Assembly (NCBI RefSeq): GCF_009936375.1
Contig: NZ_AP022332.1
Coordinates: 806,001-870,000, forward strand
Direction: 5' to 3'
Length of the DNA stretch: 64,000 nucleotides
Origin: Methylosinus sp. C49
GTDB taxonomy: Bacteria; Pseudomonadota; Alphaproteobacteria; Rhizobiales; Beijerinckiaceae
Shown here: positions 1 to 14,783 of the stretch, one piece after another
Layout: every line of letters starts with the position of its first letter
Numbering within the stretch: position 1 is the stretch's first letter
Notes under the pieces: generated by a model
Seen by the model: only the letters and a program-made list of their open reading frames with translations
Databases searched by the model: none
Told to the model about the DNA's origin: nothing
Program-made: the position numbers and the translations under genes

Positions 1-2545
1 CGACATTGGCCTTGCCGCGCAGGCTCTGGCCATTGACGGAGAGCGCCGTGTCGGCGAGCTTGGCGTCCGCCTCGCCCTTCACTTTCAAATCGAGCGCGCC
101 GGCGGCGTCGATCGGCGCCGAGCCGGTGATGGCGAAGCGCCCGCCGGCGCCGAGCGCGATATTCGCGTCGAGGCTCGTGCGCGCGCCGGCGAGCGCGCCA
201 TGCGCGTCCATGTCCAGCGGCGGCAGGCCATTGCTGCGCAATTGCGGCGCGGAGAGCTTGGCGATCTTGATCTTCCAGTCGCCGCTCGGCGCTTTCTTGT
301 CGCCGGTAATTCGCGCCTCGGCGTCCAATGCGCCGTCGAGCGCCAAGCTGGCGTCGGCGATTGAAGCGATGGAGAGCGGAATGGCGCGCGCTCTCGCGGT
401 GAGATCGAGCCGCTCGCCAATGGTTCCGTCAATGTCGAGCCGGCCGGCGCCGAGCGCGAGCGCGATTCCTTTCAGCTCCACCGCGCCGCCGCCGAGCGTG
501 ATGTTCGCCGGCGCCGCGAGGGCGATGCGCTTGCCGGCGCGCTGCGCGGACAGCGTTTTGATCTCGAGCCGCGTCTTCTCGCCCGGCGTCAGCGTGGAGC
601 GGCTCGCAATGGCGAAGCCCTCCGCATCCACTGCGAGATCGAGCGCCGTGGCGGCGCCGGCGGGCGTGGCGGTGAGACGTGCTTTGGAAATCGTCTTGCC
701 GCCGACATGGAGCGCGTCCACGGCGATGTTTCCGTCGAGCGCCGGTCGGCGCAGCAGATCATGGCCTTCGAGCTTGGCGCTCAATCTCTCGATCGTCGTG
801 TCGGCGGCGCGAATGCGCGTTCCCTGCGCATCTATCGAGATGTTCTGCGCCCCCTGCGAAGCGTCGAGGATGATGTCGGCCTTCAGCGCGCCGGAGAGCT
901 TGCGCAGAGCGAGCGCGGAGAGATCGTCGAGATCGGGCGCGGCGAGAGAGAATCGCCCGCTGGCGAGCTTTTGCGCATCCAGCGTGAGCGCGCCGCGGAG
1001 AGTCGCGCGGCCGACAGAGAGATCGAGGTCGTTCGCCGTCCAGCCGGCGTCCTTATGCGCGACATTCAATTTGCCGCGCGCCGGGGCGCCGTCTATGGCG
1101 CCGTCCAGCGTCGCGGTCGCGACGAGCGCGCCGGTGAGATCACGCGCGGCGCCATGCAGCGCGAGCTTTTGGATCGCGTGGCCGTCGAGATGCGCGCCGC
1201 TGAGCAGCGCCTCGAAATCGGCGTTGGGCTTGTCGGCGGAGCCGGTCGCCTTCACCGAGATTTCTGCGCGGCCGGAGAGGCGCGGATCGGCGGGCTTCAG
1301 ATCGGCGATCGTGACCTTCGCGCCGACGTCGAGCGCCTCGCGCATCGCCGCGCCGTCGATCTTCGTCGCGACATGCGCGCCGCGCAATTCGAGCCCGTCG
1401 AAGCGCAGGCCGCCGCCGGGCAGCGAGGCGACCGCGCCGCTGAGCGTCACGCGCTCGCCCAACAGCTTCTCCAGCGCAGGCGCCTCGAGCGACGGAACGG
1501 CCAGCGTTCCGCTCAGAGTCGCGCTCACGCGCTCGTCTTTCGGAACGCCCTTCAGCGCTATCGAAAGATCGAGCGGGCGCGGCGCAGCGTCGGAGCGGCC
1601 GCGGATGGCGATATCGCCCTCGAGCGCGCCATCGTCGCGCAGAGTGGCGGAGCCGGCGAGCTGCGTCACGCCGTCGAGCAGCGGAACGGCGGCGGGCGGC
1701 AGCAGCGGGGCGAGGCGCACGCCCAAATCGAAATCGAGCCGCCGCGCCGCATCCTTGCGAATGACATGCGCCGCGCCTTCCGCGCCGATCTTCTCTCCCG
1801 CCTTGGCGGAAAGATGCGCGGCGAAATCGTCGAGCGTTCCTTCGCCGGTCAGCGAAATATCGACGGGCGGCAGGCCGGGCAGCGCCGCGAGGCGGGCGAT
1901 GGCGCCGCCCTCTGGCTCCTGCGCCGTGAGGGCGAGCGCGATCTTTTGGCCGCCCGCCGCGACATCGGCTTTCGCCGTAATGGCGCCCGGCGCGTCGAGC
2001 CGCCGAATGTCGAGCGAGACATGCGCGCCTTTGTCGAGCGCCGCCTCGCCGGTCGCGGCGAATTTCGCCGCGGTTCCGAGAACGGGCGCGCCGAGCGACA
2101 ATGTGTCCAGCGCGAGCCGGCCGAGGCGGATGCGCACCGGAAGATCGGGGAGCGCGAAGCCGCCGCTGCTTTTCGGCGTCGCCGTCGCAGCCTGAGCGGG
2201 CGCCGGGAGGCGGGCGAGATCGATCGCGCCAATGGCGAGCTTCTCTATATCGAGGCGCAGCGAGAACAGCGCGGAAGGCGACCAGTCCAGCGCGATCTGG
2301 TCGATCTTCAGATAGGGGCCATCCCTATCGGCGATGGAAATGTCGCGCAGCAGCGGATGCGCCGACAGTGGGTCCTCGAAGGCGCCGATCTCCACTTTCA
2401 TATCGGCGGAGGAGGCGGCGCGCGAGACGAGATCGGCGAGGAAGCTCTTGCCCTCATGCGTCTGCATGCGTAGCGCGAGCGTCGCGGCGACGGCGAGCAG
2501 CGCCAGCGCGCCGAAGGCATAGGCGAGAATGCGGCCAAAGCGCAT
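1..2545 (-). CDS. tamB: TamB, inner-membrane translocation/assembly protein (N-terminal part, cut by window edge)
   Basis: The minus-strand frame from ATG 2543-2545 stays open to base 1, about 848 codons, so the C-terminal part lies outside the window. The product starts MRFGRILAYAFG with one hydrophobic signal anchor (about residues 5-24), followed by a long low-complexity region rich in A, L, D, G and R with repeated short beta-like stretches, typical of AsmA/TamB proteins. TamB spans the periplasm and works with the barrel TamA in outer-membrane protein insertion or lipid transport. The start overlaps the tamA stop by one base (TGATG), so the two are translationally coupled. Identification rests on the N-terminus, architecture and the neighbouring tamA; the diagnostic C-terminal DUF490 domain is not visible. 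Confidence 0.88.
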   Translation of the reverse strand, partial: MRFGRILAYAFGALALLAVAATLALRMQTHEGKSFLADLVSRAASSADMKVEIGAFEDPLSAHPLLRDISIADRDGPYLKIDQIALDWSPSALFSLRLDIEKLAIGAIDLARLPAPAQAATATPKSSGGFALPDLPVRIRLGRLALDTLSLGAPVLGTAAKFAATGEAALDKGAHVSLDIRRLDAPGAITAKADVAAGGQKIALALTAQEPEGGAIARLAALPGLPPVDISLTGEGTLDDFAAHLSAKAGEKIGAEGAAHVIRKDAARRLDFDLGVRLAPLLPPAAVPLLDGVTQLAGSATLRDDGALEGDIAIRGRSDAAPRPLDLSIALKGVPKDERVSATLSGTLAVPSLEAPALEKLLGERVTLSGAVASLPGGGLRFDGLELRGAHVATKIDGAAMREALDVGAKVTIADLKPADPRLSGRAEISVKATGSADKPNADFEALLSGAHLDGHAIQKLALHGAARDLTGALVATATLDGAIDGAPARGKLNVAHKDAGWTANDLDLSVGRATLRGALTLDAQKLASGRFSLAAPDLDDLSALALRKLSGALKADIILDASQGAQNISIDAQGTRIRAADTTIERLSAKLEGHDLLRRPALDGNIAVDALHVGGKTISKARLTATPAGAATALDLAVDAEGFAIASRSTLTPGEKTRLEIKTLSAQRAGKRIALAAPANITLGGGAVELKGIALALGAGRLDIDGTIGERLDLTARARAIPLSIASIADASLALDGALDAEARITGDKKAPSGDWKIKIAKLSAPQLRSNGLPPLDMDAHGALAGARTSLDANIALGAGGRFAITGSAPIDAAGALDLKVKGEADAKLADTALSVNGQSLRGKANV

Positions 2546-4545
2546 CAGAACGACTCCCCGACGCCGATGAAGATCGCGAATTTATTCTCGCCGGGACGCC
2601 GGCCGAGCGGTGTCGCCACATCGAGACGCACGGGGCCTATCCCTGTGTAATAGCGCAGGCCTATGCCGACGGACGAGCGCATGGACGATTGGAAGTCGGG
2701 GAATGGCGACGAAAAGGCGGAGCCTATGTCGTAGAAGGGAACCACGCCGATATCGCGCGTCACCTTTATGCGCGCCTCGGCCGAGCCTTCGAGCAGGCTG
2801 CGTCCGCCGACCGGAAAGCCGAGGCCGGCGTCCGGGCTGAGCGAGCGATAGCGATAGCCGCGCACCGAGCCGCCGCCGCCGGCGAAGAAGCGATGGCTCG
2901 CCGGAATATTCTCAATGCTCGCGCCGACGATGGAGCCCGCGGCCACGCGGCCGGCGAGCACATACCAGCCGTCCTCGTCCAGCGACTTGTAGCCGGAAAT
3001 CTGCGTCTTGGATTGCACCATGCCGACGCTGTCGCCGAAGGCCTTCACATAGGGCGTGACATTGGCGATGGCGCGAAAGCCATTGGAGGGCGCGAGGAGA
3101 TCGTCGGTTCCGTCGTAATTGGCCGAGAGCGGAAAGCCGAGCAGCGAATAATCATGCGGGCCGAAAGCGTCGAACGTATGCCCGCGCTCGAATTCGAGCC
3201 CCGCCTGCATGGACGCCGTATCGCTGAAGCGATGGCGGATCGCCGCCGAGCCATTGCCGTAATAGGCCCAGTAATAATCGGTCTTCTCGCGCACGAAGCC
3301 GGCGTCGAGCAGCAGATCGTTGCGCGAGCCGAACAGAGCGGGCTTCACGAAGCTCGCCTTGGCGCGGCCGATGACGTCGTTCAGGCGAATGGAGGAGAGG
3401 CCGTTGTAGCGCGCCGAGCTGCCGAAGGGCGCGAGGCCGCCTTCGACGTCGAAACGCAGCCGCTCGGCGCCGCCGAAGAGATTGCGATCGGTCCAATAGG
3501 CGCGCAGGCCCGGCCCGTCGACATTGGAGAAGAAAGCGTCGGCGCCCACCGCATGGGGCTTGCGCTCGCTCGTCTGCACGAAGATCGGCAGATTGCCATT
3601 GGCGTCGAGCTTGTCGCCATCCTCCGCCTTCACCGAGCCCACGGCTTCCAAACGGCCGATGGATTTGCGCAGCTCGGTGAGCTTCTTCGGACTATAGGTC
3701 TCGCCCTGCTCGAGATAGATGTAGGAGCGAATGACGTCCTCGTCTATGCCGGGCGAGCCGCTGGTCCTCACCTCGCCTATGCCGGCGCGCGGGCCGGGAT
3801 CGATCGTCACCACCACATCCATCGCCTTCTCGGGATGGAGGATCGTCGGTTTCGCCGCGACCACTTTGGCGAGCGGGTAGGAATTGGCGCGCAGAGCGTC
3901 GATCCAGCCGGCCTGCATGGATTGCAAGGCGGCGGCGCGCGCGGGCTGCTCGGGATCGCGCTCGAGCGTTTTTTTCGTGAGCAGCGCCTCGTCGAGCGGC
4001 TTGCCGCTGCGGGCGTCGAGAAGGGCGACGTTGCGCAAATGGAACAGCGGGCCGGGGGTGATCTCTATGCGAATCGGCGCCAGCGTCTGGCCGCGCAGCC
4101 GCTCTGCCGCGGCTGCGGCGACATCGGCGCCATGGCCGTCCGGCCGCACCGGGACGCCGGCGACCGTGGCCTTGATCTCCGCGTCATAATAGCCGCTCGC
4201 CCAGAGCGCCTCGGCGAGGCGCGGGAAATCGGCGACGACGCGCCGCGCGACGCCGGCCCCCGTGGGCGGCGCCTGCAGCCGCAGCCGCCATGTGCTGGAG
4301 GCGTCCTGAAGGTTGCGCGCGAGGCCCTCCACCTCGTCGAGGCCGGAGAATTCGATTTTATAGGGCAGCGCGTCGCGGCTCGGCTCCGGCGTCTCCTCGG
4401 CGGCGCCGAAGAGGCCGAAAAAATCGAATGCACGGGCGGGGGAGACGGCCTCCGGGCCGCCGAACGCAAGGAGCGCCGCCACGCCCAGAAAACGCTTCAC
4501 GTATTTCACTTCGCCAACGACCCGAACCGAGGATTGCCGCACCAT
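2545..4545 (-). CDS. tamA: TamA, Omp85-family outer-membrane barrel
   Basis: The 666-residue protein has a signal sequence (hydrophobic core around residues 20-40, ending near SPARA), an N-terminal periplasmic region of POTRA type (about 60-290, e.g. GPLFHLRNVAL and GEVRTSGSPGIDEDVI, which resemble POTRA strands) and a C-terminal Omp85 barrel (about 310-666) with FFAGGGGSVRGYRY near 560, the conserved VRGY loop-6 motif. It ends in GVGESF, a terminal Phe fitting the BAM beta-signal. Length is usual for alphaproteobacterial TamA. It heads a two-gene unit with tamB. The operator region just upstream carries a CtrA-like site. BamA is unlikely because the gene pairs with tamB and lacks the bam/lpx neighbourhood. 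Confidence 0.92.
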   Translation of the reverse strand: MVRQSSVRVVGEVKYVKRFLGVAALLAFGGPEAVSPARAFDFFGLFGAAEETPEPSRDALPYKIEFSGLDEVEGLARNLQDASSTWRLRLQAPPTGAGVARRVVADFPRLAEALWASGYYDAEIKATVAGVPVRPDGHGADVAAAAAERLRGQTLAPIRIEITPGPLFHLRNVALLDARSGKPLDEALLTKKTLERDPEQPARAAALQSMQAGWIDALRANSYPLAKVVAAKPTILHPEKAMDVVVTIDPGPRAGIGEVRTSGSPGIDEDVIRSYIYLEQGETYSPKKLTELRKSIGRLEAVGSVKAEDGDKLDANGNLPIFVQTSERKPHAVGADAFFSNVDGPGLRAYWTDRNLFGGAERLRFDVEGGLAPFGSSARYNGLSSIRLNDVIGRAKASFVKPALFGSRNDLLLDAGFVREKTDYYWAYYGNGSAAIRHRFSDTASMQAGLEFERGHTFDAFGPHDYSLLGFPLSANYDGTDDLLAPSNGFRAIANVTPYVKAFGDSVGMVQSKTQISGYKSLDEDGWYVLAGRVAAGSIVGASIENIPASHRFFAGGGGSVRGYRYRSLSPDAGLGFPVGGRSLLEGSAEARIKVTRDIGVVPFYDIGSAFSSPFPDFQSSMRSSVGIGLRYYTGIGPVRLDVATPLGRRPGENKFAIFIGVGESF

Positions 4546-4574
4546 AAGCGCAGCCTTGCAAGCGGTCCATCGCG

Positions 4575-4614
4575 TTAAGCTTAACCATACAACCTATGGT
4601 TAAGCCAGTCTTAA
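4575..4614 (-). promoter_or_regulatory. Palindromes and CtrA-type site upstream of tamA
   Basis: In the 86-bp gap between the receptor stop and tamA start, TTAA-N7-TTAA occurs at 4600-4614; read on the minus strand it is TTAA GACTGGC TTAAC, an exact fit to the CtrA full-site consensus TTAA-N7-TTAAC. A perfect 12-bp palindrome (GTTAAGCTTAAC, 4575-4586) and a perfect 10-5-10 inverted repeat (CTTAACCATA...TATGGTTAAG, 4580-4604) overlap it. The inverted repeat could also act as a terminator for a transcript entering from either side, although it is not followed by a T run. Function is inferred. Confidence 0.5.
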
Positions 4615-4631
4615 TGCGCCCCTCGCGCATG

Positions 4632-6953
4632 TCAGAATTTGAAGCCGACCTTGGCGAGCACGGTGCGCGGCGCGCCCGGGTAATAAATGCCGTTGGCCGA
4701 CGTCTGCTGATAATAGCCGCTGCTGATCTGGCCGATATAGGCGGTGTCGAACATATTCATGCAGGTGACGCTGGCGGTGATCGTTCCCCAGTCGATCTTG
4801 TGCTCGTATTTCACGGTGAGATCGAAGGTGGAATAGCCGGCGAGAGGCTGATATCCCGATGTGTCGCCGGCGCGCGAGCCGACGATATGCAGGATCGGCG
4901 TGATGGTGAATTGCTCTATGCGCAGATCGCCGCCGATCGTCGAGATGAAATAGGGCACGTCCGGCAATTGCTTGCCCTTCACGCGCGTCGACCAATAATT
5001 GGCCGCGGAGGCGCCGGGCAGCAGCGGCAGGTCTTCGACGAATTCAGCGCGCTGATAGCCGAGCGAAGCGAAGAGCGACACGGTCTCCAGCGGGGAGTAA
5101 TGGACGACCGCTTGCGCGCCGTAATTCTGGCTCTCGCCGACATTGGCGCCATATTGCGTGCCGATGCCGGGATCGTAAGAGACGAGCTTGTTGTGATTGC
5201 GGGAGTAATAGATCGTCGGCTCCACATAGCCCGAGCCATAGGCGCCGTCGAAGGACCAGCGCAGGCCGAGATCGAGCTGCGTCGAGGTCTCCGGCTTCAT
5301 CGAATGCCAGAATTGATCCGCAGTGATTCCCTTGGCGAGGAAGGTCGCCGAATTCTGCTGGAACACCGGCCAGGCGTCATAGCCCGGTCCGCCATAGCCG
5401 CCGCCGCCGCTGAATTTCAGCAATAGATCGTCGGTCAGCCGATAGGTGAGCGCGCCGAAGGGCAGAAAAGTGCCGATGGTGAAGGGCTTGACGCTGCGAT
5501 TGGCGATGACGCCGGAGGAGAGCGCCAGCGCCGTGTCATAGGGGACATCGCCTATGCCGGTCGAATTATAGGCGTCTATGCCCGCCATGCGTTCCCAAAT
5601 ATAGCGCGCGCCCGCCTCCACATGTAGCGGACCGAAGTCGCGGCTCGCGATTCCATAGGCGGAATCGAACACATGCGGCGCGGTCTGCTTGCCGAGGATC
5701 GCCCAGCTCGGATTGATGAGGCCGCCGCCCGCATTGGGGGCGAAGACTTCCCATGCCGTCGGCGGTCCGGGGGGATTTTGCACGCCATGCCAGAAGCCGA
5801 GCTTGGCGTCCGTATCCAGCACGCGGGTCTGCAATTCGCTCACCACGCCCCACATGTCGTGGTCGATGATCCATTTGCGGATGCGGCCATTGTTCTGGCC
5901 ATCGAGATAATAGCCGTCCTCGCGGAAATAATAGGGCTTGAAGACGAAGCGCGTCGTCTTGTCGACCTCTATGGCGATATCGCCGAAGGCGGTCCAAGAG
6001 TCGAAATGCTGGAGATTATAGCCGTAGTAATTGATCTGGCTGGCCGTCGTCGGGCCTGGATAGGCGGCGAAATCATAGCGGCGGAAGGCGCCGAGATTGC
6101 TCGCCTGCTGATAATTCAGTCCCTGATAGCTGTGCTGGTCGAAGCTGCTCTCGGCGACGAAGAATTTCGCTTCCAGCCCGTCGACGGGCTTGGTGTCCAC
6201 GCCGACCGCGAAGCCCGATTTGCCCTGCGGATCCTTGCCGGAGCCGCGCCATTTGTCGGCGTCGGTGAAGGAGCCGGAGACGAAGAGCTTCGTCGTGCCG
6301 TTCAAAATCTCGCCCGAGTCGATGCGGGCGAAAGTGCGCAGGAAGGAGAAGGAGCCGACGCTCTGCGAAATCTCGCCGCCGAATTTCTCCGCCGGCCAGC
6401 GCAGGCGGCTGTCGAAATTGCCGCCGACAGTGAAATAGGAGTTCACATCGGAGGGCATGGGGCCTTGCCGCAGCACGATCTTGCTCAGATTCTCATTGTC
6501 GATGAGCCAGGTGACGCCGGGGCCGGGATTGATGCCGGAGAGCGGCAAGCCCTCCACCGTGCCGATGCTGTTGCCGTGCTGGCTGACCTCGCCGCGAATG
6601 CGAATGCCTTTGTTGCCGCCGGGAAGATTGGCGAGGCCGTAAGGATCGATGGCCGGCGCATCGACGGAGGGCAGCCAGGAGATGCCGCGGATGGGATTGG
6701 AGCCGCCGCCGCCGCTGGCGAGATCGAGCCCGCGCGCATCCGCGGCATAGGCGGTGGATGAAACGGATTCCGAGCCGATGACGCCGGGCTCGGGCTTTTT
6801 CTTCGGCGCGGCGGGCGCCGGGCCGATCGAGATTTCCGGCAGCGGGGTGAAGCTCTGCGCGCCGGCGCCCTGGGCGGCGCCGAGCAGCGCGGCCAAGGAT
6901 GCGCCGCCGAGAAGAAGGGAGGAGCCGCGTCTTTTGCGCGCGAACATCGTCAT
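4632..6953 (-). CDS. TonB-dependent outer-membrane receptor
   Basis: The 773-residue protein has a signal peptide (cleavage near residue 33, AQGAGAQ), a plug domain (about 70-210: GIRIRGEVSQHGNS, LRQGPMPSDVNSYFTVGGN) and a 22-strand-type barrel ending in VLAKVGFKF, with the expected terminal Phe. EISIGP just after the signal peptide could be a TonB box. Such receptors import scarce metal chelates, cobalamin or similar compounds across the outer membrane using TonB energy. It lies downstream of a BtuCD-type importer and two TiaS-like genes on the same strand, but behind its own 171-bp gap with a palindromic promoter region. The substrate cannot be read from sequence; Mo/W, an iron siderophore, cobalamin or a lanthanide chelate are all possible, with Mo/W favoured by context. 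Confidence 0.9.
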   Translation of the reverse strand: MTMFARKRRGSSLLLGGASLAALLGAAQGAGAQSFTPLPEISIGPAPAAPKKKPEPGVIGSESVSSTAYAADARGLDLASGGGGSNPIRGISWLPSVDAPAIDPYGLANLPGGNKGIRIRGEVSQHGNSIGTVEGLPLSGINPGPGVTWLIDNENLSKIVLRQGPMPSDVNSYFTVGGNFDSRLRWPAEKFGGEISQSVGSFSFLRTFARIDSGEILNGTTKLFVSGSFTDADKWRGSGKDPQGKSGFAVGVDTKPVDGLEAKFFVAESSFDQHSYQGLNYQQASNLGAFRRYDFAAYPGPTTASQINYYGYNLQHFDSWTAFGDIAIEVDKTTRFVFKPYYFREDGYYLDGQNNGRIRKWIIDHDMWGVVSELQTRVLDTDAKLGFWHGVQNPPGPPTAWEVFAPNAGGGLINPSWAILGKQTAPHVFDSAYGIASRDFGPLHVEAGARYIWERMAGIDAYNSTGIGDVPYDTALALSSGVIANRSVKPFTIGTFLPFGALTYRLTDDLLLKFSGGGGYGGPGYDAWPVFQQNSATFLAKGITADQFWHSMKPETSTQLDLGLRWSFDGAYGSGYVEPTIYYSRNHNKLVSYDPGIGTQYGANVGESQNYGAQAVVHYSPLETVSLFASLGYQRAEFVEDLPLLPGASAANYWSTRVKGKQLPDVPYFISTIGGDLRIEQFTITPILHIVGSRAGDTSGYQPLAGYSTFDLTVKYEHKIDWGTITASVTCMNMFDTAYIGQISSGYYQQTSANGIYYPGAPRTVLAKVGFKF

Positions 6954-7057
6954 TGCTGTCAGCCTTTCACCGCCCCCGGCCGACGCGCCGCTCGCCCGCC
7001 GCTCGATTCGTGATGTAACGCAATTACGTAAATAGGCGTAGGCGTGGCGGCAAGTCT

Positions 7058-7102
7058 ATTATGACGGCACAACGACGCATATCACGTCATCAGACGTCAT
7101 AT
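7058..7102 (-). promoter_or_regulatory. Receptor promoter region with 24-bp imperfect palindrome
   Basis: Upstream of the receptor, 7079-7102 reads ATAT-n-ACGT-N6-ACGT-n-ATAT, a palindrome with one mismatched pair; on either strand it also shows ACGTCAT repeated 10 bp apart (7084-7090, 7094-7100), one helical turn. A candidate minus-strand -10 (CATAAT, 7058-7063) lies downstream, with a weak -35 (GTGATA) 17 bp further up inside the palindrome. The 9-mer ATATGCGTC here also occurs in the binding-protein promoter at 11612-11621. A metal-responsive regulator site is inferred; the regulator is unknown. Confidence 0.45.
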
Positions 7103-7124
7103 AGAAGGCGTGTAGTTCCGCTCG

Positions 7125-7829
7125 CTATCGAGATTTCGCCTTTGGCTCGGCGCCGGCCGCCTCCCACATGCCCTCGCCGATGCGGCGCAAGGGCAGGACG
7201 GCGCGGCCGGCGGCGAGCTGCGGCCGCAGCCGACCATGGGTGTCGATCCAATCGTCGGGCGCGGGCGCCTCGGCGTCCGTCTCCAGCGAAACGAGGAAAA
7301 TGCCGAGCGCTCTCAGCTCTCGCGCCTGCACGGCGCGATCGAGCCGGCGCAGCCCGCCGAATTCGAGCCAGCGCCCGGACCATCCGCGCGCCGTCAGCCC
7401 CACCGCCGCCGCCGCGCCGATGAGGCCCCGGCCTCCGCGCAGGCCGGCGACGCGCACTTCGATCAAAGGCGGCAGCTCCTCGGGGCGAATCTCGCGCCGG
7501 CTGGCGGCGCGGCCGAAGTCGATGAGCGCTTCCGCCTCCGCGCCGGCCACGAGAATTCCCGGCGCGCTGGAGGGCGCCGCATTGGCCTCCACATAGGCGG
7601 CGGCCTGGGCGAGCAGAAAATCAGCGGCGTCGGCGCGTTCGCTCTCGACGACGAGGCAGGAGGCCTTGTTATTGGTGGTCGCCGCCACGCCGGAAAACAG
7701 AATATGGCCGACCGAGCCGATGAAGCGTGTCTCGCCCGCGAGCGTGTCGCCGAATTCGCGCGCCAGCCGCGCCGTGCTGGCCGCCCAGCCGGCGCCATCC
7801 GTGTCGTCTATTCCGATGAGGATGCGCAT
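7125..7829 (-). CDS. TiaS N-terminal-domain-like protein B (GIDDTD family)
   Basis: The 234-residue soluble protein opens MRILIGIDDTDGAG (D8, D9, D11), the signature of the N-terminal domain of archaeal tRNA(Ile2) agmatinylcytidine synthetase TiaS, and carries the second TiaS-like motif GLIGAAAAVG (about 135-144). It is far shorter than TiaS and lacks the kinase-like, OB-fold and zinc domains. It shares the block RGWSGRWLEFGGLRRL with the gene just upstream (YGWCGRFLEYGRLRRL), so the two are tandem duplicates. Its ATG overlaps the preceding stop by one base (TGATG), implying coupled translation with the transporter ATPase operon. A tRNA role is unlikely given truncation and context; the true reaction is unknown. 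Confidence 0.75.
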   Translation of the reverse strand: MRILIGIDDTDGAGWAASTARLAREFGDTLAGETRFIGSVGHILFSGVAATTNNKASCLVVESERADAADFLLAQAAAYVEANAAPSSAPGILVAGAEAEALIDFGRAASRREIRPEELPPLIEVRVAGLRGGRGLIGAAAAVGLTARGWSGRWLEFGGLRRLDRAVQARELRALGIFLVSLETDAEAPAPDDWIDTHGRLRPQLAAGRAVLPLRRIGEGMWEAAGAEPKAKSR

Positions 7830-8560
7830 CAGTCTGCGGCCTCGGCGTCGCGCGGGCGCTTGCCTATGGCGATGAGGCGGCCGTCCTTCTCCTCCACCGG
7901 CGCGACGGCGCGCCCGCCCCAGAGCCGCGGCGACAGCCAGCCGCCCGTATGAATCAGCGCCTCTGGATCGAGCGCGCGCGCATATTTGTCGATCGCCGTC
8001 GCTTCAATGCCGGCCTCGGCCAGCGCCGCGACGGAGATGGGATCGGGCAGGCGGCGCAGCCTTCCATATTCCAGAAAGCGGCCGCACCAGCCATAGGCGG
8101 AGAGTCCGACGGCGGCCAGCGCGCCGATGATTCCGTCATTGGTTCCGCCGAGGCCGAGCAGCTCGACGCCGGCGCGGGCGGCCACTTCTCTCGCATGATC
8201 CTGCGTCTCGATCTCATGCGTGCAGGAGAGGCCGAATGCGATGATCTCGGAAAGATCGTCGGTCTCTCGCGCGATGCAGAGGCCGGGGTCCGAGCCGTCG
8301 CTGGCCAGCTCGGCGATATGGGCGATGGCGCTGGCGGCGAGCAAAGGGATCAGCGCCTCGTCCTCTATCTCCACCACGGCGCAGGCCGGGCTGTTGTGAG
8401 AGGTGAAGGGAATGCGCGGATCGACGAGCAATTGATGGCGCAGCGCGCCCCACAGCCGCGCGCCTTCGGGAAGCTTGCGCTCGAACATGCGCACCAGCCG
8501 CCCGGTGCCGATCTTCGCTCCGGCGACGTCGGTGTCGTCGAAGCCCATATAGAGCTTCAT
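7829..8560 (-). CDS. TiaS N-terminal-domain-like protein A (GFDDTD family)
   Basis: The 243-residue protein starts MKLYMGFDDTDVAGAK (D8, D9, D11) and keeps the TiaS-type segments DPRIPFTSHNSPACAV (about 48-62, compare the IPFKTRGN region of TiaS) and GIIGALAAVG (143-152). There is no membrane segment or signal peptide. It overlaps the importer ATPase stop by ATGA and is followed by its paralogue with a TGATG overlap, so ATPase, A and B form one translationally coupled unit. Family knowledge suggests a nucleotide- or agmatine-handling catalytic domain in TiaS; here, without the tRNA-binding domains, it may act on a small molecule, a metal ligand or a cofactor. Function unassigned. Confidence 0.75.
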   Translation of the reverse strand: MKLYMGFDDTDVAGAKIGTGRLVRMFERKLPEGARLWGALRHQLLVDPRIPFTSHNSPACAVVEIEDEALIPLLAASAIAHIAELASDGSDPGLCIARETDDLSEIIAFGLSCTHEIETQDHAREVAARAGVELLGLGGTNDGIIGALAAVGLSAYGWCGRFLEYGRLRRLPDPISVAALAEAGIEATAIDKYARALDPEALIHTGGWLSPRLWGGRAVAPVEEKDGRLIAIGKRPRDAEAAD

Positions 8561-9369
8561 CTTTCGGCCCTTCCATTGCGTCCGGCGACGGGCGCGAGCC
8601 GCCGCGCGCCGAAAGGATCGTCGAACACCGCCACCTCGACGCCATAGAGGCGCGAGATGCGCTCCGCCGTCACCACCGCCTGCGGCGCGCCATCGGCCTC
8701 GATGCGGCCCTCGTTCAAAATGGCGATGCGCGTCGCCAGCTGCATCGCATGTTCGGGATGATGGGTGCTGACCAACACGCCATGCCCGTCGGCGGAAAGA
8801 GCGGACAAATGCCGCATCAGCCGCAGCTGATAGCCATAGTCGAGCCCCGTCGCCGGCTCGTCCATCACCAGAAGGCGCGCGCCTTGCGCCAGCGCGCGGG
8901 CGATGAGCGTGAGCTGCCGCTCGCCGCCGGAAATCTCCGTATAGGGCCGGTCGATCAGCCGCTCCATGCCGAGCCGGGCGATGACGCTTTCGACGATTTC
9001 GCGATCCTCGGCGCGGGGCGCGCGCAAAAGCCCCGTCTCCGGCAGGCGGCCGAGCGTGACCACCTCGCGCACCGTATAGGGAAAAGGCGTGACATGGCCT
9101 TGCGGCACATAGGCGACGCGCCTGGCGATCTCGCGTCGCGACAACGAGGCGAGCGGCGCGCCGTCGAGCCGAACCTCGCCGCTGCTCGCGGTCAGAAAGC
9201 CGAGCAGCAGGCGAAACAATGTGCTTTTGCCCGCGCCATTGGCGCCGAGCAAAGCGACGATCTCGCCAGTTCCGAAGCCGAGCGTCGCGCCCTCGAGCAC
9301 GCGCCGCTTCCCGCGCGAAAAATGCAGATCGACGCCTCGCAGCTGTGCGGTCGCAGAGGGCGCTCTCAT
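8557..9369 (-). CDS. BtuD/FecE-type ABC transporter ATPase
   Basis: The 270-residue cytoplasmic ATPase has Walker A GANGAGKST (42-50), a Q-loop near YVPQGH, signature ISGGERQ and Walker B LLVMDEPATGLD, followed by the switch STHHPEH. It belongs to the group energising iron-siderophore, cobalamin and MolC-type molybdate/tungstate type II importers. The permease gene lies 136 bp upstream and the TiaS-like pair is coupled downstream. The size is normal. Sequence alone does not separate the substrates. Confidence 0.93.
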   Translation of the reverse strand: MRAPSATAQLRGVDLHFSRGKRRVLEGATLGFGTGEIVALLGANGAGKSTLFRLLLGFLTASSGEVRLDGAPLASLSRREIARRVAYVPQGHVTPFPYTVREVVTLGRLPETGLLRAPRAEDREIVESVIARLGMERLIDRPYTEISGGERQLTLIARALAQGARLLVMDEPATGLDYGYQLRLMRHLSALSADGHGVLVSTHHPEHAMQLATRIAILNEGRIEADGAPQAVVTAERISRLYGVEVAVFDDPFGARRLAPVAGRNGRAER

Positions 9370-9449
9370 GATGCGGCCTCGCGGCGATGCGGGAGAGGAG
9401 GCAGGCGTCGCGCCTCGTCGAGATGGCGCGCGCGCCGATCGCTGGCGCC

Positions 9450-9486
9450 CCCTCTCCCGCGCTGCGGGCGAGGGCGAAGGAGAGGG
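9450..9486. repeat. Short inverted repeat in the permease-ATPase gap
   Basis: The 136-bp gap between permease and ATPase holds CCCTCTCC (9450-9457) and its reverse complement GGAGAGGG (9479-9486) around a G+C-rich loop. It resembles half of the CTTCTCCC-type intergenic repeat seen three times elsewhere in the window. It could attenuate transcription between permease and ATPase or stabilise the mRNA. Confidence 0.4.
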
Positions 9487-9505
9487 CGCTCCACTGCCCT
9501 CCTCC

Positions 9506-10504
9506 TCACGCCCAGGCCCTCCGCGCCCGGCCGAGCACGAGGATGAAGGCCGGTATGCCGAGCAATTCGGTGACGACGCCGATCGGGATCTCGGCGCGGG
9601 TGATGTTGCGGGCCACGCAATCGGCGGCGATGAGAAAGGTCGCGCCCAGCAGCGCGCTCGCCGGCAGCAGCCGGCTATTGGTCGGCCCTATGGCGAGCCG
9701 CGCCACATGCGGCACGACCAGCCCGACCCAGCCGATCATGCCGGCGAGCGAGACCGAGAGCGAGGAGACCAGCGTCGCCGCGGCGATGACGCCATAGCGC
9801 GTCAGATGCACCGGCACGCCGAGCGAGCGCGCCTCGTCGTCGCCCATGGAGAGCGCGTCCAGCGCGCGGCCGGCCAGCGCAAGAGCGCCGACCCCGGCGA
9901 GAATGGGCAGAGCGGCTCCGCGCAATTGCTTGAGATCGACGGCGCCGAGGCTGCCCATCATCCAATAGACGATCGCGGGCAGCTGATCGTAAGGATCGGC
10001 GGCATATTTGACGAGCGACAGCGCCGAGGTGAACAAAGCGCCGGAGATCATGCCGCCGAGCACTAGAGTCACCATGGAGGCGGCGCCGAAGAGATTGGCG
10101 ACGATGACGCCGACGCCGACCGCGATCAGCCCCATGGCGAAAGCGGAGAGCTGAATGGTGAGAAAATCGCCGGAGAGCAGAATGCCGAGCGCCGCGCCGA
10201 ATCCGGCGCCGCCCAGCACGCCGAGAATGCCCGGCGACACCAGCGGATTGCGGAACACTGCCTGAAAGGACGCGCCCGAGGCCGAGAGCGCCGCGCCGAT
10301 GAGCCCCGCCGCCAGCACGCGCGGCAGGCGAATCTCGACGATGAGATTATGCAGGAGATCGAAGTGCTCCGGGGGAAGCTCGATGAGCCCCATAACGGCG
10401 CCGAGATAGGCGAAAATATCCCCCGGCGCGAGCGGATAGCGTCCGGCCGAGAGAGCCAGAACAATGACCGCCAGCAGGAGGAAAGGCAGAAGGGCGAGGC
10501 GCAT
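9506..10504 (-). CDS. FecCD/BtuC-type ABC transporter permease
   Basis: The 332-residue polytopic protein has about nine hydrophobic helices and the FecCD hallmark LAGMIGWVGLVVPHVAR near residue 260 (family pattern: G-x-I-x-F-V-G-L-V-x-P-H-x-x-R), plus the early motif RLPRVLAAGLIGAALSASGA (about 60-80). It forms the channel homodimer with the downstream ATPase. The gene is 12 bp from the binding-protein gene, so the two are co-transcribed. Length matches the family. Type II importers with this fold carry siderophores, cobalamin, heme or oxyanions of Mo/W (MolB). Confidence 0.93.
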   Translation of the reverse strand: MRLALLPFLLLAVIVLALSAGRYPLAPGDIFAYLGAVMGLIELPPEHFDLLHNLIVEIRLPRVLAAGLIGAALSASGASFQAVFRNPLVSPGILGVLGGAGFGAALGILLSGDFLTIQLSAFAMGLIAVGVGVIVANLFGAASMVTLVLGGMISGALFTSALSLVKYAADPYDQLPAIVYWMMGSLGAVDLKQLRGAALPILAGVGALALAGRALDALSMGDDEARSLGVPVHLTRYGVIAAATLVSSLSVSLAGMIGWVGLVVPHVARLAIGPTNSRLLPASALLGATFLIAADCVARNITRAEIPIGVVTELLGIPAFILVLGRARRAWA

Positions 10505-10516
10505 CGGAACCGTCGC

Positions 10517-11563
10517 TCACTCCATTATGCGGGTGAAATCGGCGTCGGAAATTTCGACGCCGAGAAAGAGCTGGTAGAATTTTTTGGTCTCGGCCTTCAC
10601 GTCGAGCGGAAAGCGCGACGGATAGAAGAGATTGGCCAGCCATTGGATTCCGAGCGCGCGCATATAGCTCGGCGGACGATCGAGCCAATTGAAGGGCGCA
10701 TGCGGGACATTCACGATGCGGCCGTTCTTCACCGCCTCCACATTGCGCCACAGCGCGCTGCTCTTGGCGAGGGCGGGGAAGCCCTTGTTCTGCGTCAATA
10801 TCAGCGACGGCTTCAGCGCGACGATCTGCTCGACGCTGATCTTGTCCATGCCGACATGCGAGCTCTGCTCGCAATGATAGATATTGTCGCCCGCCGCTAT
10901 GACGATCGGCTCCGTATGGAAGCTCTTGTCGCAATCGGTCGCGAGCCCGTCGGCGGATTCGGCGTAATAGACGCGCAGCCGCTCGGCCGGCGGAATATCG
11001 GCGGTCGCCTCGCGCACGCGGAGAAGCGCGTCGCGAATATAGGCGGACATTTCGGCGGCTTTCGCCTCGCGTCCGACGACCTGTCCCAGAAAGGCGAAAG
11101 CGTCGGCATAATCGTCGAGCGTGTCGAGCTTCAGGAAGATCACCGGAACCCCGATCTTGGCGAAGCTCTCCACCACCTTCGCCTTCTCCTGATAGAAGCC
11201 GAGCCAGGCGACGACGAGATCGGGGCGCATCGCCGCGATCTCCTCGAGATTGAGCTGGCGGCCCATGCCCGCATTGCTGCCGAGAACGGGCAGATCGAGC
11301 GCCTCCTTGCGATAGAGTGACTTCTCGTCGCCGCGTATCGGCACATTGATGCCGATGAGCCGCTCCGGCGCTATGGCGTAGAGCGTCACCGCCACCGGCG
11401 GCGCCGCGCCGAAGATGCGTTTGGGATCGGCGGGGATCACGACCTTGCGGCCGGCCATGTCCGTGACCTCGCGCGTTTGCGCATGCGCCGGGGCGCAGGC
11501 GAGCAGCGCCAGCAAGGCGCAGAGCAGCAGAGGGGACTGGGCGAGGCGAGATTTCGAGGGCAT
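10517..11563 (-). CDS. Periplasmic binding protein of BtuCD/FecBCD/MolABC-type importer
   Basis: I place the start at ATG 11561-11563, giving 348 residues with a clear signal peptide (LLLCALLALLACAPAHAQ); the upstream extension is poor in protein character. The mature part is a PF01497-type two-lobe binding protein: TDMAGRKVVIPADPKRI at the N-terminus, then a long-helix-linked second lobe with VEQIVALKPSLILTQ. The C-terminal stretch DRPPSYMRALGIQWLANLFYP resembles binding proteins of anion/metal-chelate importers more than classical siderophore receptors. It heads the transporter operon and faces formate dehydrogenase across a 349-bp region with two Mo-box-like sites. A molybdate or tungstate ligand is my inference; a siderophore or cobalamin is not excluded. 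Confidence 0.88.
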   Translation of the reverse strand: MPSKSRLAQSPLLLCALLALLACAPAHAQTREVTDMAGRKVVIPADPKRIFGAAPPVAVTLYAIAPERLIGINVPIRGDEKSLYRKEALDLPVLGSNAGMGRQLNLEEIAAMRPDLVVAWLGFYQEKAKVVESFAKIGVPVIFLKLDTLDDYADAFAFLGQVVGREAKAAEMSAYIRDALLRVREATADIPPAERLRVYYAESADGLATDCDKSFHTEPIVIAAGDNIYHCEQSSHVGMDKISVEQIVALKPSLILTQNKGFPALAKSSALWRNVEAVKNGRIVNVPHAPFNWLDRPPSYMRALGIQWLANLFYPSRFPLDVKAETKKFYQLFLGVEISDADFTRIME

Positions 11564-11606
11564 GTGCGAGGCCTTTCGACCTTCCGCGGTGGCGGGAGTG
11601 CGCATA

Positions 11607-11631
11607 CGATATATATGCGTCTTATATAGAC
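11607..11631 (-). promoter_or_regulatory. ModE-like box upstream of the binding-protein operon
   Basis: TATATA (11610-11615), seven bases, then TATATA (11623-11628) form a spaced palindrome, flanked by CGA and GAC so that the minus strand reads CTATATA-N7-TATATATCG. This matches the architecture of ModE (molybdate-responsive) operators, which have TATAT-type half-sites separated by 6-8 bp. It is a strikingly A+T-rich island 44 bp upstream of the binding-protein start, where repression by a Mo/W-bound regulator would act. No modE gene is in the window. Confidence 0.55.
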
Positions 11632-11836
11632 AATAGAGACCGGAGGCCTCATCGCGCAAGGCCAAATTCTAGCCTCCGCTCGTCTGCTGGGAGAAGCCGC
11701 GCCTTTTTCGCCACGCGACATTCCGGCTTCCGTTCCCGCGTCGTCCGGCTCGATATATTCGCGCGCCCGACTCCGGTATCTGGCGTCGTCAGCGAAATAT
11801 TATAGGCTTCGTCTATCGAGCGACGATTTGCGGTTA

Positions 11837-11883
11837 TTGACAAAAATCCGCCTGTCTATCGTTATGTAATTAGAGTACATCAA
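11837..11883 (+). promoter_or_regulatory. Formate dehydrogenase promoter with ModE-like box
   Basis: A perfect -35 TTGACA (11837-11842) is followed, over the expected -10 and start region, by GTTATGTA (11861-11868), seven bases, TACATCAA (11876-11883). The left half equals the reverse complement of TACATAAC, a half-site I recall from the E. coli modA operator, and the inner hexamers are inverted (ATGTA...TACAT). It has the same 7-bp spacing as the box at 11607-11631. The rest of the 349-bp divergent region (11632-11836) shows only a further CGATATAT island near 11751. Confidence 0.6.
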
Positions 11884-11912
11884 ATTCTTCCGGCCTCGCG
11901 GGGACCAGAATC

Positions 11913-14783
11913 ATGAGCCTCATCAAGGAAATCGACTATGGAACGCCGGCTTCCCGCTCTGAGAAGGAAGTCACTCTGACCATCGACGGGACGGAGATCA
12001 CCGTGCCGGAAGGCACGTCGATCATGCGCGCGGCGATGCAGATCGGCGTCGAGATCCCCAAGCTCTGCGCTTCCGACAATCTCCACTCCTTCGGCTCCTG
12101 CCGCCTCTGCCTCATAGAGATAGAGGGCCGCGGGAATCTCTCCGCCTCCTGCACCACGCCGGTCATGCCGGGCATTGCAGTGAAGACCTTCTCGCCGCGG
12201 CTCGACTCGATCCGCCGCGGCATAATGGAGCTCTATATCTCCGATCATCCGCTCGACTGCCTCACCTGCCCGGCCAATGGCGATTGCGAGCTGCAGTCCA
12301 TGGCGGGCGCTGTGAGCCTGCGCGAGGTGCGCTATGGCTATAGCGGGCGCAATCATGTGACGGCGCGTCGCGAGGGCCGCCGCAACGAGGATTGGAAGCC
12401 CAAGGACAAATCCAATCCCTATTTCACCTATGATCCGTCCAAATGCATCGTCTGCAATCGCTGCGTGCGCGCCTGCCAGGAAGTGCAGGGCACATTCGCG
12501 CTGACGATCGAAGGCCGCGGCTTCGACAGCCGCGTCTCGCCGGGCGCGGGCGAGGCCTATATGGAATCGGAGTGCGTCTCCTGCGGCGCCTGCGTGCAGG
12601 CCTGCCCGACCGCGACGCTCACCGAAAACTCCGTCATCGCCATCGGCCAGCCGGAGCATTCGGCCGTCACCACTTGCGCCTATTGCGGCGTCGGCTGCGC
12701 CTTCAAGGCGGAGATGCGCGGCGAGGAGATCGTGCGCATGGTCCCGTGGAAGGACGGCAAGGCCAATCACGGCCACAGCTGCATCAAGGGCCGCTTCGCC
12801 TATGGCTATGCGCTGCATCGCGACCGCGTGACCAGCCCGATGATCCGCGAGAAGATCACCGACCCCTGGCGCGAAGTGTCCTGGGAGGAGGCGATCTCCC
12901 ACGCCGCCTCTGAGTTCAAGCGCATTCAGGCGAAATACGGCCGGCTCGCCGTCGGCGGCATCACCTCCTCGCGCTGCACCAGCGAGGAGACGTTTCTGGT
13001 GCAAAAGCTCATCCGCAGCGGCTTCGGCAATAATAATGTCGACACATGCGCGCGGGTTTGCCATTCGCCGACCGGCTATGGCCTCAGCCAGGCTTTCGGC
13101 ACCTCGGCCGGCACGCAGGATTTCGATTCCGTCGCCGAGGCCGACGTCATTCTCATCATCGGCTGCAATCCGACCGACGCGCATCCGGTCGTCGGCTCGC
13201 AGATCAAGCGGCGGATACGCGAGGGCGCCAAGCTCATCGTCGTCGATCCACGCCGCACCGAGCTGGTGCGCTCGCCGCATATCAGCGCGGCCTTCCATCT
13301 GCCGCTGCGTCCGGGAACCAATGTCGCCATCGTCACCGCGCTCGCCCATGTGGTGGTGAAAGAGGGGCTCGTGAATGAGGCCTTCGTGCGCGAGCGTTGC
13401 GATTGGGACGAATATTTGGAATGGGCCGCCTTCGTCGGCGAGGAGAGCAACAGCCCGGAGGCGGTGGAGAAGTTCACCGGCGTTCCGGCGCATCTCGTGC
13501 GCGGCGCGGCGCGTCTCTACGCCACCGGCGGCAACGCCACCATTTACTACGGCCTCGGCGTCACCGAGCATAGCCAGGGCTCGACCACAGTGATGGCCAT
13601 CGCCAATCTCGCAATGGCGACCGGCAATCTCGGCCGTCCCGGCGTCGGCGTCAATCCGCTGCGCGGGCAGAACAATGTGCAGGGCTCCTGCGATATGGGG
13701 TCTTTCCCGCATGAGTTCCCCGGCTATCGCCATGTCTCCGACGACAATGTGCGCAAGCTGTTCGAGGAGGCCTGGGGCGTTCCGCTGGACGGCGAGCCGG
13801 GCCTGCGCATTCCCAATATGTTCGACGCCGCTGTCGATGGCGTGTTCAAGGGCCTCTATGTGCAGGGTGAGGATATTCTGCAGTCGGACCCGGACATCAA
13901 GCATGTCTCGGCCGGGCTCGGCGCGCTGGAATGTCTCGTCGTGCAGGATCTCTTCCTCAATGAGACCGCCAATTACGCGCATGTCTTTTTGCCCGGCGCG
14001 AGCTTCCTCGAGAAGGACGGCGTCTTCATCAACGCCGAGCGCCGCATTCAGCGCGTGCGCCGCGTGATGAGCCCCAAGGCCCGCTATGCCGATTGGGAGG
14101 CGACGCAGCTCTTCGCCAATGCGCTCGGCTGCAATTGGAATTACACGCATCCGAGCGAGATCATGGACGAGATCGCCAAGCTCACGCCATCCTTCGCCCA
14201 TGTCTCCTACGCCAAGCTCGACGAGGCGGGCTCGGTGCAATGGCCCTGCAATGATCTGTCGCCGGAAGGCATGCCGATCATGCACATCGATAAATTCGCG
14301 CGCGGCAAAGGCAAATTCGTCATCACCGAATATGTGCCGACGGAGGAGCGCACCGGGCCGCGCTTCCCGCTGCTGCTGACCACCGGCCGCATTCTCTCGC
14401 AATACAATGTCGGCGCGCAGACGCGCCGAACCGAGAACAGCCAATGGCATCCCGAGGATGTGCTGGAGCTCCATCCGCATGACGCCGAGGTGCGCGGCGT
14501 GCGCGAGGGCGATTGGGTGCGCGTGCAGAGCCGCGCCGGCGAGACGACGCTGCACGCCAAGATCACCGATCGCGTCGCGCCCGGCGTCGTCTACACAACG
14601 TTCCACCATCCTCTGTGCCAGACCAATGTCGTCACCACCGACAATTCCGATTGGGCGACCAATTGCCCGGAATATAAGGTGACGGCGGTGCAGGTCTCGC
14701 CGTCCAACGGTCCCACCGAATGGCAGGAGCGCTATCGCGAGATGGCGGAGCGCAGCCGGCAGATCGTCGCCGCCGGCGAATAG
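11913..14783 (+). CDS. fdhA: Formate dehydrogenase alpha subunit (Mo/W-bis-MGD, FdsA/Fdh1A type)
   Basis: The 956-residue cytoplasmic enzyme subunit oxidises formate to CO2. Cofactor ligands are visible in order: [2Fe-2S] C52, C63, C66, C80; His-Cys cluster H112, C116, C119, C125; two ferredoxin clusters C178/181/184/188 and C221/224/227/231; the MGD-proximal [4Fe-4S] C255, C258, C262, C290; and the metal ligand C383 with H384 in ARVCHSPT. The ligand is Cys, not selenocysteine. The architecture is that of NAD-linked FdsA/Fdh1A, which normally pairs with an FMN/NADH-binding beta subunit and, in Fds, gamma and delta subunits; none is in the window. In methylotrophs this is the last step of C1 oxidation. 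Two Mo-box-like sites precede it. Confidence 0.95.
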   Translation: MSLIKEIDYGTPASRSEKEVTLTIDGTEITVPEGTSIMRAAMQIGVEIPKLCASDNLHSFGSCRLCLIEIEGRGNLSASCTTPVMPGIAVKTFSPRLDSIRRGIMELYISDHPLDCLTCPANGDCELQSMAGAVSLREVRYGYSGRNHVTARREGRRNEDWKPKDKSNPYFTYDPSKCIVCNRCVRACQEVQGTFALTIEGRGFDSRVSPGAGEAYMESECVSCGACVQACPTATLTENSVIAIGQPEHSAVTTCAYCGVGCAFKAEMRGEEIVRMVPWKDGKANHGHSCIKGRFAYGYALHRDRVTSPMIREKITDPWREVSWEEAISHAASEFKRIQAKYGRLAVGGITSSRCTSEETFLVQKLIRSGFGNNNVDTCARVCHSPTGYGLSQAFGTSAGTQDFDSVAEADVILIIGCNPTDAHPVVGSQIKRRIREGAKLIVVDPRRTELVRSPHISAAFHLPLRPGTNVAIVTALAHVVVKEGLVNEAFVRERCDWDEYLEWAAFVGEESNSPEAVEKFTGVPAHLVRGAARLYATGGNATIYYGLGVTEHSQGSTTVMAIANLAMATGNLGRPGVGVNPLRGQNNVQGSCDMGSFPHEFPGYRHVSDDNVRKLFEEAWGVPLDGEPGLRIPNMFDAAVDGVFKGLYVQGEDILQSDPDIKHVSAGLGALECLVVQDLFLNETANYAHVFLPGASFLEKDGVFINAERRIQRVRRVMSPKARYADWEATQLFANALGCNWNYTHPSEIMDEIAKLTPSFAHVSYAKLDEAGSVQWPCNDLSPEGMPIMHIDKFARGKGKFVITEYVPTEERTGPRFPLLLTTGRILSQYNVGAQTRRTENSQWHPEDVLELHPHDAEVRGVREGDWVRVQSRAGETTLHAKITDRVAPGVVYTTFHHPLCQTNVVTTDNSDWATNCPEYKVTAVQVSPSNGPTEWQERYREMAERSRQIVAAGE

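Follow-up and report, generated by a model that had tools for sequence, protein, structure and literature searches.

The 64,000-nucleotide window analyzed here (C1:806001-870000 of the 4.70-Mb genome, G000, of the methane-oxidizing bacterium Methylosinus sp. C49) contains a gene block that, judging from sequence comparison, is probably a ModE-controlled acquisition system for molybdenum or tungsten (Mo/W). Its minus-strand operon encodes, in order, a periplasmic binding protein, a FecCD permease, an ABC ATPase, and two proteins resembling the tRNA-modifying enzyme TiaS, here termed T1 and T2. A TonB receptor gene comes after T2 behind a promoter box of its own, and the gene for the alpha subunit of formate dehydrogenase (FDH) is divergent to the operon. 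Profile searches found all of these parts where an earlier reading of the bare sequence (the original prediction) had placed them. A role of the block in Mo/W handling, which we consider very likely, is carried by three independent lines: the ModE-like boxes in its promoters, the co-occurrence of such boxes with the regulator ModE, and the gene neighborhoods of T1 across phyla. These neighborhoods are the decisive new evidence for a Mo/W role. By tying T1 to the Mo storage protein (MoSto), Tup-like genes, MOT1, and TonB or energy-coupling factor (ECF) transport in several phyla, they back, together with the boxes, the Mo/W acquisition originally proposed.

T1 relatives occur at 73 loci in alphaproteobacteria, Acidobacteriota, Desulfobacterota and kin, Bacteroidota, Actinomycetota, and Planctomycetota, and also on haloarchaeal megaplasmids; sulfate reducers are among the hosts. 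Neighboring genes were clustered and the cluster representatives annotated, with clusters of antisense open reading frames (ORFs) removed from the neighbor maps by eye, and counts within 3 kb of T1 (382 kb examined) were set against those beyond 6 kb (253 kb examined). A MoSto homolog (cluster c3, AA_kinase; MoSto beta-like, matching 2ogx_B with E 4e-65) lies within 3 kb of T1 at 39 of the 73 loci and at none beyond 6 kb. The same comparison gave 13 versus 2 for TupA-like and 14 versus 2 for TupB-like genes, all Tup-like genes scoring below the Tup cut-offs, 4 versus 0 for MOT1, and 2 versus 0 for MoaA-like genes, which, like the MoeA-like ones, were named by reading. Transport genes include TonB receptors (cluster c11, 11 versus 0, and c25, 5 versus 0, in overlapping sets), CbiQ-type ECF-T proteins (10 versus 0), and a candidate ECF S component without a Pfam family (12 versus 0), so named because it lies beside ECF A and T genes. 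A counted Mo/W gene is present within 6 kb of T1 at 47 of the 73 loci, a counted TonB or ECF gene at 19, and either at 62. Of ten neighbor-cluster representatives scanned against Pfam, eight had a match, all to Mo/W-related or transport families, and two had none; MFS_MOT1 and AFOR_N domains were identified among the neighbors.

At one Desulfobacteraceae locus (L037), TonB and ECF genes, T1, two TupA-like genes, TupB- and TupC-like genes, MoSto, and an HTH-PBP_like regulator stand in a row. Labilibacter (L063) combines AFOR_N, the N terminus of the tungsten aldehyde ferredoxin oxidoreductase family, with a ModE-type helix-turn-helix (HTH), cofactor genes named by reading, a receptor, and T1, and an Acidobacteriota locus (L007) holds a receptor, T1, T2, and ECF genes. 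In a haloarchaeon (L133), which has no outer membrane, T1 is divergent to a PF01497 binding protein and a FecCD permease, with no ATPase identified at the locus. FDH-like genes, 23-29% identical to the window FDH, lie divergent upstream of T1 at four loci (L010, L015, L021, and L029), and in a genome of the same order (L085) T1 is paired with a receptor 40% identical to that of L037. In a T1 tree computed without L064 and L077, the window protein falls into one group (support 100/100) with L005, L006, and L007, all of which have receptors, and with L008, which has MoSto. Linkage to a receptor takes six changes on this tree, at least three of them forced by well supported branches. A plasmid scan found T1 relatives in three records; one of these, the 3.8-kb Pimelobacter simplex plasmid pC-N39 (L134), has three annotated genes and carries its T1 relative at 1441-2178.

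All three transcription units of the block are preceded by a box of the form TATRTA-N7-TAYATA, and with up to two mismatches no others occur in the window. The four matches, at three places, compare with a mean of 0.16 in shuffled sequence, where four was reached in 0 of 100 shuffles. Boxes with a 7-bp spacer had been predicted in both divergent promoters and were found there; the box before the TonB receptor is a third one, beyond those two (Table 1). The box regions are kept in the aligned promoters of five Methylosinus genomes, including this one, the exact box before the binding protein recurs in G397, G398, G401, G404, and G405, and in Rhodoblastus a one-mismatch box is found 23 bp ahead of the receptor ortholog. 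In the box before FDH, the half-site CGTTATGTA is identical, when read on the opposite strand, to the right arm of the modA operator of E. coli (GTCGTTATATTGTCGCCTACATAACG).

The host genome as a whole has 8 exact and 14 one-mismatch boxes, 22 in all, versus 11 for the backward control. With spacers of 3-11 allowed, eight of the nine exact sites have spacer 7 (3 in the backward control), a preference whose probability, corrected for the nine spacers tried, is about 2e-6. The flanks, which the search pattern does not cover, are biased toward CG, and none of 24 sites, many of which are orthologous, has G beside the core; when only the eight own sites are counted, CG occurs in 6 of 16 halves (p 0.02) and G beside the core in none of the 16. 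The host ModE has an HTH, closely like that of E. coli ModE, and two TOBE stretches. Full-length ModE orthologs (85-100% identity) are present in nine of ten Methylosinus genomes, and the same nine hold exact boxes (8, 11, 8, 2, 2, 6, 0, 5, 5, and 6 per genome, 53 in total, versus 6 in the backward control). The remaining genome, G402 (2.8 Mb, 99% complete), shows only a partial match to the TOBE region (E 9e-7) and is the sole one without an exact box. A MoSto pair is encoded in nine of the ten genomes; that of the host, at C1:518702-520305, is far from the block. In G399, a stretch of 5 kb holds ModE, MoSto, and an SBP_bac_11 protein resembling ModA on reading, along with two one-mismatch boxes. 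Further boxed host genes are a YqeB-like Mo-cofactor gene (L130) and a ModA-like protein (L084), both below cut-off. The boxes appear from their sequence and distribution to belong to a ModE-like regulon, ModE being the regulator that the boxes themselves point to.

The block is conserved within the genus. Methylosinus sporium (L005) carries the same block with proteins 80-96% identical (T1, 91%), and binding-protein orthologs with 69-100% identity are present in six of ten Methylosinus genomes, including this one. The receptor has orthologs of 83-97% identity in four other Methylosinus genomes and one of 51% in Rhodoblastus, and T2 also adjoins T1 in five other Methylosinus genomes, Rhodoblastus (L006), and the Acidobacteriota locus L007. 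The companionship with FDH that the original prediction proposed to look for in other genomes holds for five of the six Methylosinus genomes with a binding-protein ortholog, in which the whole block has FDH divergent beside it; elsewhere, FDH-like matches are not enriched near T1. In the sixth genome, G405 (L108), there is no FDH match (E 1e-10) within the 15 kb covered at this locus; its TonB receptor is down to short fragments (5955-6341), with T1, T2, and the importer retained. The Rhodoblastus order is receptor, second receptor (named from reading only), luciferase-like monooxygenase, binding protein, permease, ATPase, T1, T2, and methyltransferase. The last of these, an S-adenosylmethionine methyltransferase at L006 10484-11677, follows straight after T2, and the second half of its reading frame looks unlike a methyltransferase.

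T1 and T2 are 38% identical to each other. The original prediction called them two TiaS-like enzymes: homology over roughly the first 165 residues stands, with T1 aligned to TiaS over residues 1-164 (family profile, E 2.5e-7), and the scores are far below the curated cut-offs. T1 reaches 31.7 bits against a cut-off of 600 for NF040849, which places it outside TiaS proper, and T2 and T1 reach 32.2 and 27.1 bits against 255.8 for TIGR03280, outside methanogenesis marker 11. T1, at 243 residues, has no match past position 164 of the 422-position TiaS profile and lacks the C-terminal tRNA-binding domains of TiaS. In TiaS, Thr18 (T18) is the catalytic threonine; the aligned T19 of T1 and its DDTD motif are invariant in 61 T1 sequences (alignment A1, 61 of 74; conservation was computed over all 74 too). 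The motifs TSxNS, GSDPG, and GGTxDGIIGA show little or no variation, with C60, H81, and C95 as near-invariant additions, and the predicted T1 structure is confident (pLDDT 92.6, pTM 0.91). TiaS, the tRNA(Ile2) 2-agmatinylcytidine synthetase, has in common with T1 the DDTD motif, the threonine equivalent to T18, and the G(I/L)IGA region; it differs in that T1 covers its first 164 positions only, has the three additional residues, and sits among Mo/W genes. Methanogenesis marker protein 11 and the structure 3u02, which we take to be a Pyrococcus protein, show weak but significant similarity to T1 and T2.

The permease, ATPase, and PF01497 binding protein, encoded in an operon-like row, make up a type II (BtuCDF/MolABC-like) importer. 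The window receptor has the PF00593 beta-barrel of TonB-dependent transporters; no PF07715 Plug match was found by Pfam in it or in its L104 ortholog, and a weak one (E 2e-6) is present in the related L125 receptor. Among solved structures, the binding protein is closest to 4pag (E 1e-71), followed by MolA (3psa, E 3e-11) and BtuF (about 8e-11); an assignment of its pocket was dropped, since by sequence these last two values do not separate MolA from BtuF. The FDH alpha subunit scores above the family cut-off and is a member of that family, with no other FDH subunit following it in a reading of the ORF list. Given Methylosinus synteny and its box, it is probably the recipient of the metal.

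Table 1. Features of the putative Mo/W acquisition block, in window coordinates.
Feature	Position	Strand	Evidence
TonB-dependent outer-membrane receptor, 773 aa	4632..6953	-	PF00593 E 3e-20
Putative ModE-like box before TonB receptor	7012..7030		2 mismatches to TATRTA-N7-TAYATA
T2, 234-aa TiaS/mmp11-like protein, T1 paralog	7125..7829	-	TIGR03280 32.2 bits, E 6e-8
T1, 243-aa TiaS-like protein	7829..8560	-	NF040849 31.7 bits, E 6e-8
ABC ATPase, FecE/BtuD kind, 270 aa	8557..9369	-	PF00005 E 3e-30
FecCD/BtuC-type permease, 332 aa	9506..10504	-	PF01032 E 4e-79
Class III periplasmic binding protein, 348 aa from ATG below box	10517..11563	-	PF01497 E 1e-19
Putative ModE-like box before binding-protein operon	11610..11628		exact match to TATRTA-N7-TAYATA
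Putative ModE-like box before FDH alpha	11863..11881		1 mismatch to TATRTA-N7-TAYATA
FDH alpha subunit, 956 aa	11913..14783	+	TIGR01591 935.6 bits, cut-off 666.25

Several observations weigh against a ModE-controlled Mo/W system. The published E. coli ModE operator consensus, as given in the available part of PMC545781, is ATCGNTATATA-N6-TATATANCGAT; half-sites and flanks agree with it, and the spacer is off by one because it is 7 here instead of 6. ModE and the boxes are jointly lost in a single genome, G402, and this genome is at the same time the smallest one and has no MoSto. Within the host, there is no N7 box, with up to one mismatch, at the clear modA (L082), none with up to two mismatches before MoSto (L182), and an exact box before the zinc GTPase ZigA (L115, G000 C1:2670601, above cut-off), a metallochaperone gene usually tied to zinc control. 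The ZigA box and the missing boxes at modA and MoSto speak against a simple regulon picture. A family-wide scan found the site in 3 of 39 other genomes, in none of them before modABC (ORFs by reading). Around T1, the HTH-PBP_like regulator (3 versus 2 within 3 kb and beyond 6 kb) and MoeA (2 versus 1) are not clearly enriched, nor is FDH, with FDH-like matches at two loci within 3 kb and four beyond 6 kb, which slightly lowers our confidence in the reading of the block. Eleven of the 73 T1 loci have no counted neighbor at all. The Rhodoblastus locus was scored in this way despite its receptor and importer because the counted TonB clusters leave out the Methylosinus/Rhodoblastus receptor family, and L029 was so scored although an FDH-like gene is divergent to its T1. 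T1 is also rare in alphaproteobacteria: of 397 genomes of the order three have it, one with a weak match, and of 385 genomes of the class one does. By sequence, the binding protein is no closer to MolA than to BtuF.

In the route that we propose for the ModE-controlled system, Mo/W shortage would lead ModE, the regulator suggested by the boxes, to release or activate the three promoters. The TonB receptor would then move a Mo/W species over the outer membrane, from where the class III binding protein and the FecCD/BtuCD-type importer would, going by their families, carry it to the cytoplasm. There, the TiaS-type ATP site of T1, with T2, may act on the cargo or the oxyanion: the genomic association of T1 with Mo/W genes is observed, and the chemistry is conjectural. 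T1 and T2 would pass the metal on to MoSto storage, encoded elsewhere in the genome, and to cofactor synthesis, and it would end in Mo/W enzymes, here probably the divergent FDH. We only tentatively assign to T1 an ATP-dependent step on Mo/W or on a Mo/W carrier. A wider proposal is that T1 is the founding member of a bacterial and archaeal Mo/W-handling family built on the TiaS kinase-like domain, activating or releasing Mo/W (from a chelate or for MoSto loading), and that the block is at the same time a dedicated TonB-dependent Mo/W-chelate importer; we place this combination just short of an even chance.

The nature of the cargo separates the proposed route from its closest competitor, in which the block is likewise a Mo/W system and the receptor and importer take free molybdate or tungstate. 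MolABC, a known type II molybdate/tungstate importer, provides a precedent for this at the inner membrane, and oxyanion importers (Tup-like and MOT1) are found instead at many T1 loci. On the other hand, TonB receptors as a rule import what is too large or too rare for porins, and receptors are paired with ECF transporters, which are best known for vitamins and metal ions, at T1 loci such as L007, L018, L025, L041, and L051. We lean slightly toward a small Mo/W chelate, as more likely than the bare oxyanion, and regard uptake of free oxyanion as a lesser, though real, possibility.

An ordinary siderophore or haem importer, with the TiaS-like and FDH neighbors there by chance, would fit the transporter parts, whose families consist mostly of iron-siderophore and haem systems. 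It is improbable in view of the ModE-type boxes at all three units, the Mo/W neighbors of T1 in other phyla, and the preservation of block and boxes across several Methylosinus genomes. The gene associations that the original prediction named as contrary evidence, with siderophore, cobalamin, or lanthanide genes, were not seen among the scanned representatives, which do not comprise every neighbor; within the same scope, there are no cobalamin synthesis genes among the annotated T1-neighbor representatives, CbiQ-type ECF-T apart.

Still less probable is an importer of corrinoids, lanthanides, or copper chelates of the kind typical of methylotrophs. A TonB receptor with an ABC importer does serve lanthanides in Methylobacterium (lut cluster; available part of PMC11317620), and the window permease scores best with the BtuC model. 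Against this stand the ModE-type boxes, the presence of T1 in sulfate reducers and a haloarchaeon, and the riboswitch searches (MOCO and cobalamin): the window has no Rfam match and hence no cobalamin riboswitch, and 24 of the 73 T1 loci have none, their only matches being two tRNAs. Control by either riboswitch was accordingly discarded for the window and these 24 loci. That T1 and T2 are TiaS-type tRNA-modifying enzymes in the operon by accident is the least probable alternative, since, for all their homology to TiaS over residues 1-164, proteins of about 240 residues match only that part of a 422-position profile and the recurrent neighbors of T1 are Mo/W and transport genes.

Among known systems, MolABC of Haemophilus influenzae is like the block in its FecCD-type permease and class III binding protein; the block's binding protein is only distantly alike, and no TonB receptor, TiaS-like protein, or FDH is known as part of MolABC. 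TupABC, WtpABC, and ModABC with ModE share with the block a Mo/W purpose and ModE-type boxes, and Tup-like genes lie beside T1 in Desulfobacterota, but these are importers of another class without an outer-membrane receptor. For receptor cargo, molybdophore uptake offers a parallel: Azotobacter catecholates are molybdophores, which would be the cargo expected for such a receptor. The Lut lanthanide system and the methylolanthanin receptor also combine a TonB receptor with an ABC importer in a methylotroph, for a different metal and with no mention of ModE boxes or a T1-like protein in the available part of the text (PMC11317620). MorABC of Rhodobacter was rejected as a precedent, being ModABC-like with no TonB in the portion of text available (PMC6925177), and PMC13119186, as far as its accessible part goes, deals with a cobalt ECF transporter.

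A 2018 survey gives ModABC, WtpABC, and TupABC as the known prokaryotic Mo/W ABC systems, has no mention of TonB in the part of its main text available, reports Mo users without a known transporter, and says that there may be further uptake systems (PMC6147048). The accessible part of a paper on tungsten biochemistry contains neither "TonB" nor "siderophore" (PMC10221389). The original prediction held TonB-dependent Mo/W uptake not to be an established system, and neither such uptake nor a Mo/W role of TiaS-like proteins is described among the matches listed, as judged by title or start of abstract; most subscription journals lie outside this coverage, which leaves absence unproven. If our reading is true, the block represents an outer-membrane route for Mo/W not described in the literature searched, and addresses how Mo/W passes the outer membrane when scarce or chelated. 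T1 would serve as a sequence marker for candidate Mo/W systems across phyla, with a role proposed for an unnamed TiaS relative, and TonB-dependent Mo/W uptake would become directly testable in culturable methanotrophs.

Some further features of the block's surroundings and of other boxed loci may be added. An Omp85-type gene (2545-4545) adjoins the block and is syntenic in four other Methylosinus genomes, with no further tie to it. Two boxed clusters elsewhere in the host also contain TonB receptors. L125 (G000 C2:130000-146000, 5678-12077; boxes at 5699 and 11952) has a luciferase-like monooxygenase, ABC protein, permease, and binding protein, together with a TonB receptor that shares 29% identity with that of the window, and a similar cluster occurs in G397 (L185). 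L128 (G000 C1:408000-425000, 4059-13305) has a TonB receptor, a weak radical-SAM protein, and a binding protein divergent from a permease, an ATPase, and a TonB protein. Pfam identified both receptors and the L128 binding protein, and tblastn the binding protein of L125; permeases and ATPases were named by reading. An exact box precedes an unannotated 456-aa protein at L109 (G000 C1:638785), with the same box sequence in G397, G398, G401, and G404, and in G430 (L138) a ModE-like box precedes a small protein reading like a molybdopterin-binding oxidoreductase domain. At the host modA locus (L082, G000 C1:3533000-3549000, 5935-7878), modA is divergent from an HTH_17 plus PBP_like regulator of the kind found beside T1 in L036. 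Solitary luciferase-like monooxygenases with exact ModE-like boxes are found at L126 (5487-6467) and L127 (7794-8792), and a homolog of these lies inside the Rhodoblastus operon (L006 5190-6197). The boxed monooxygenases may function in the opening of an imported chelator.

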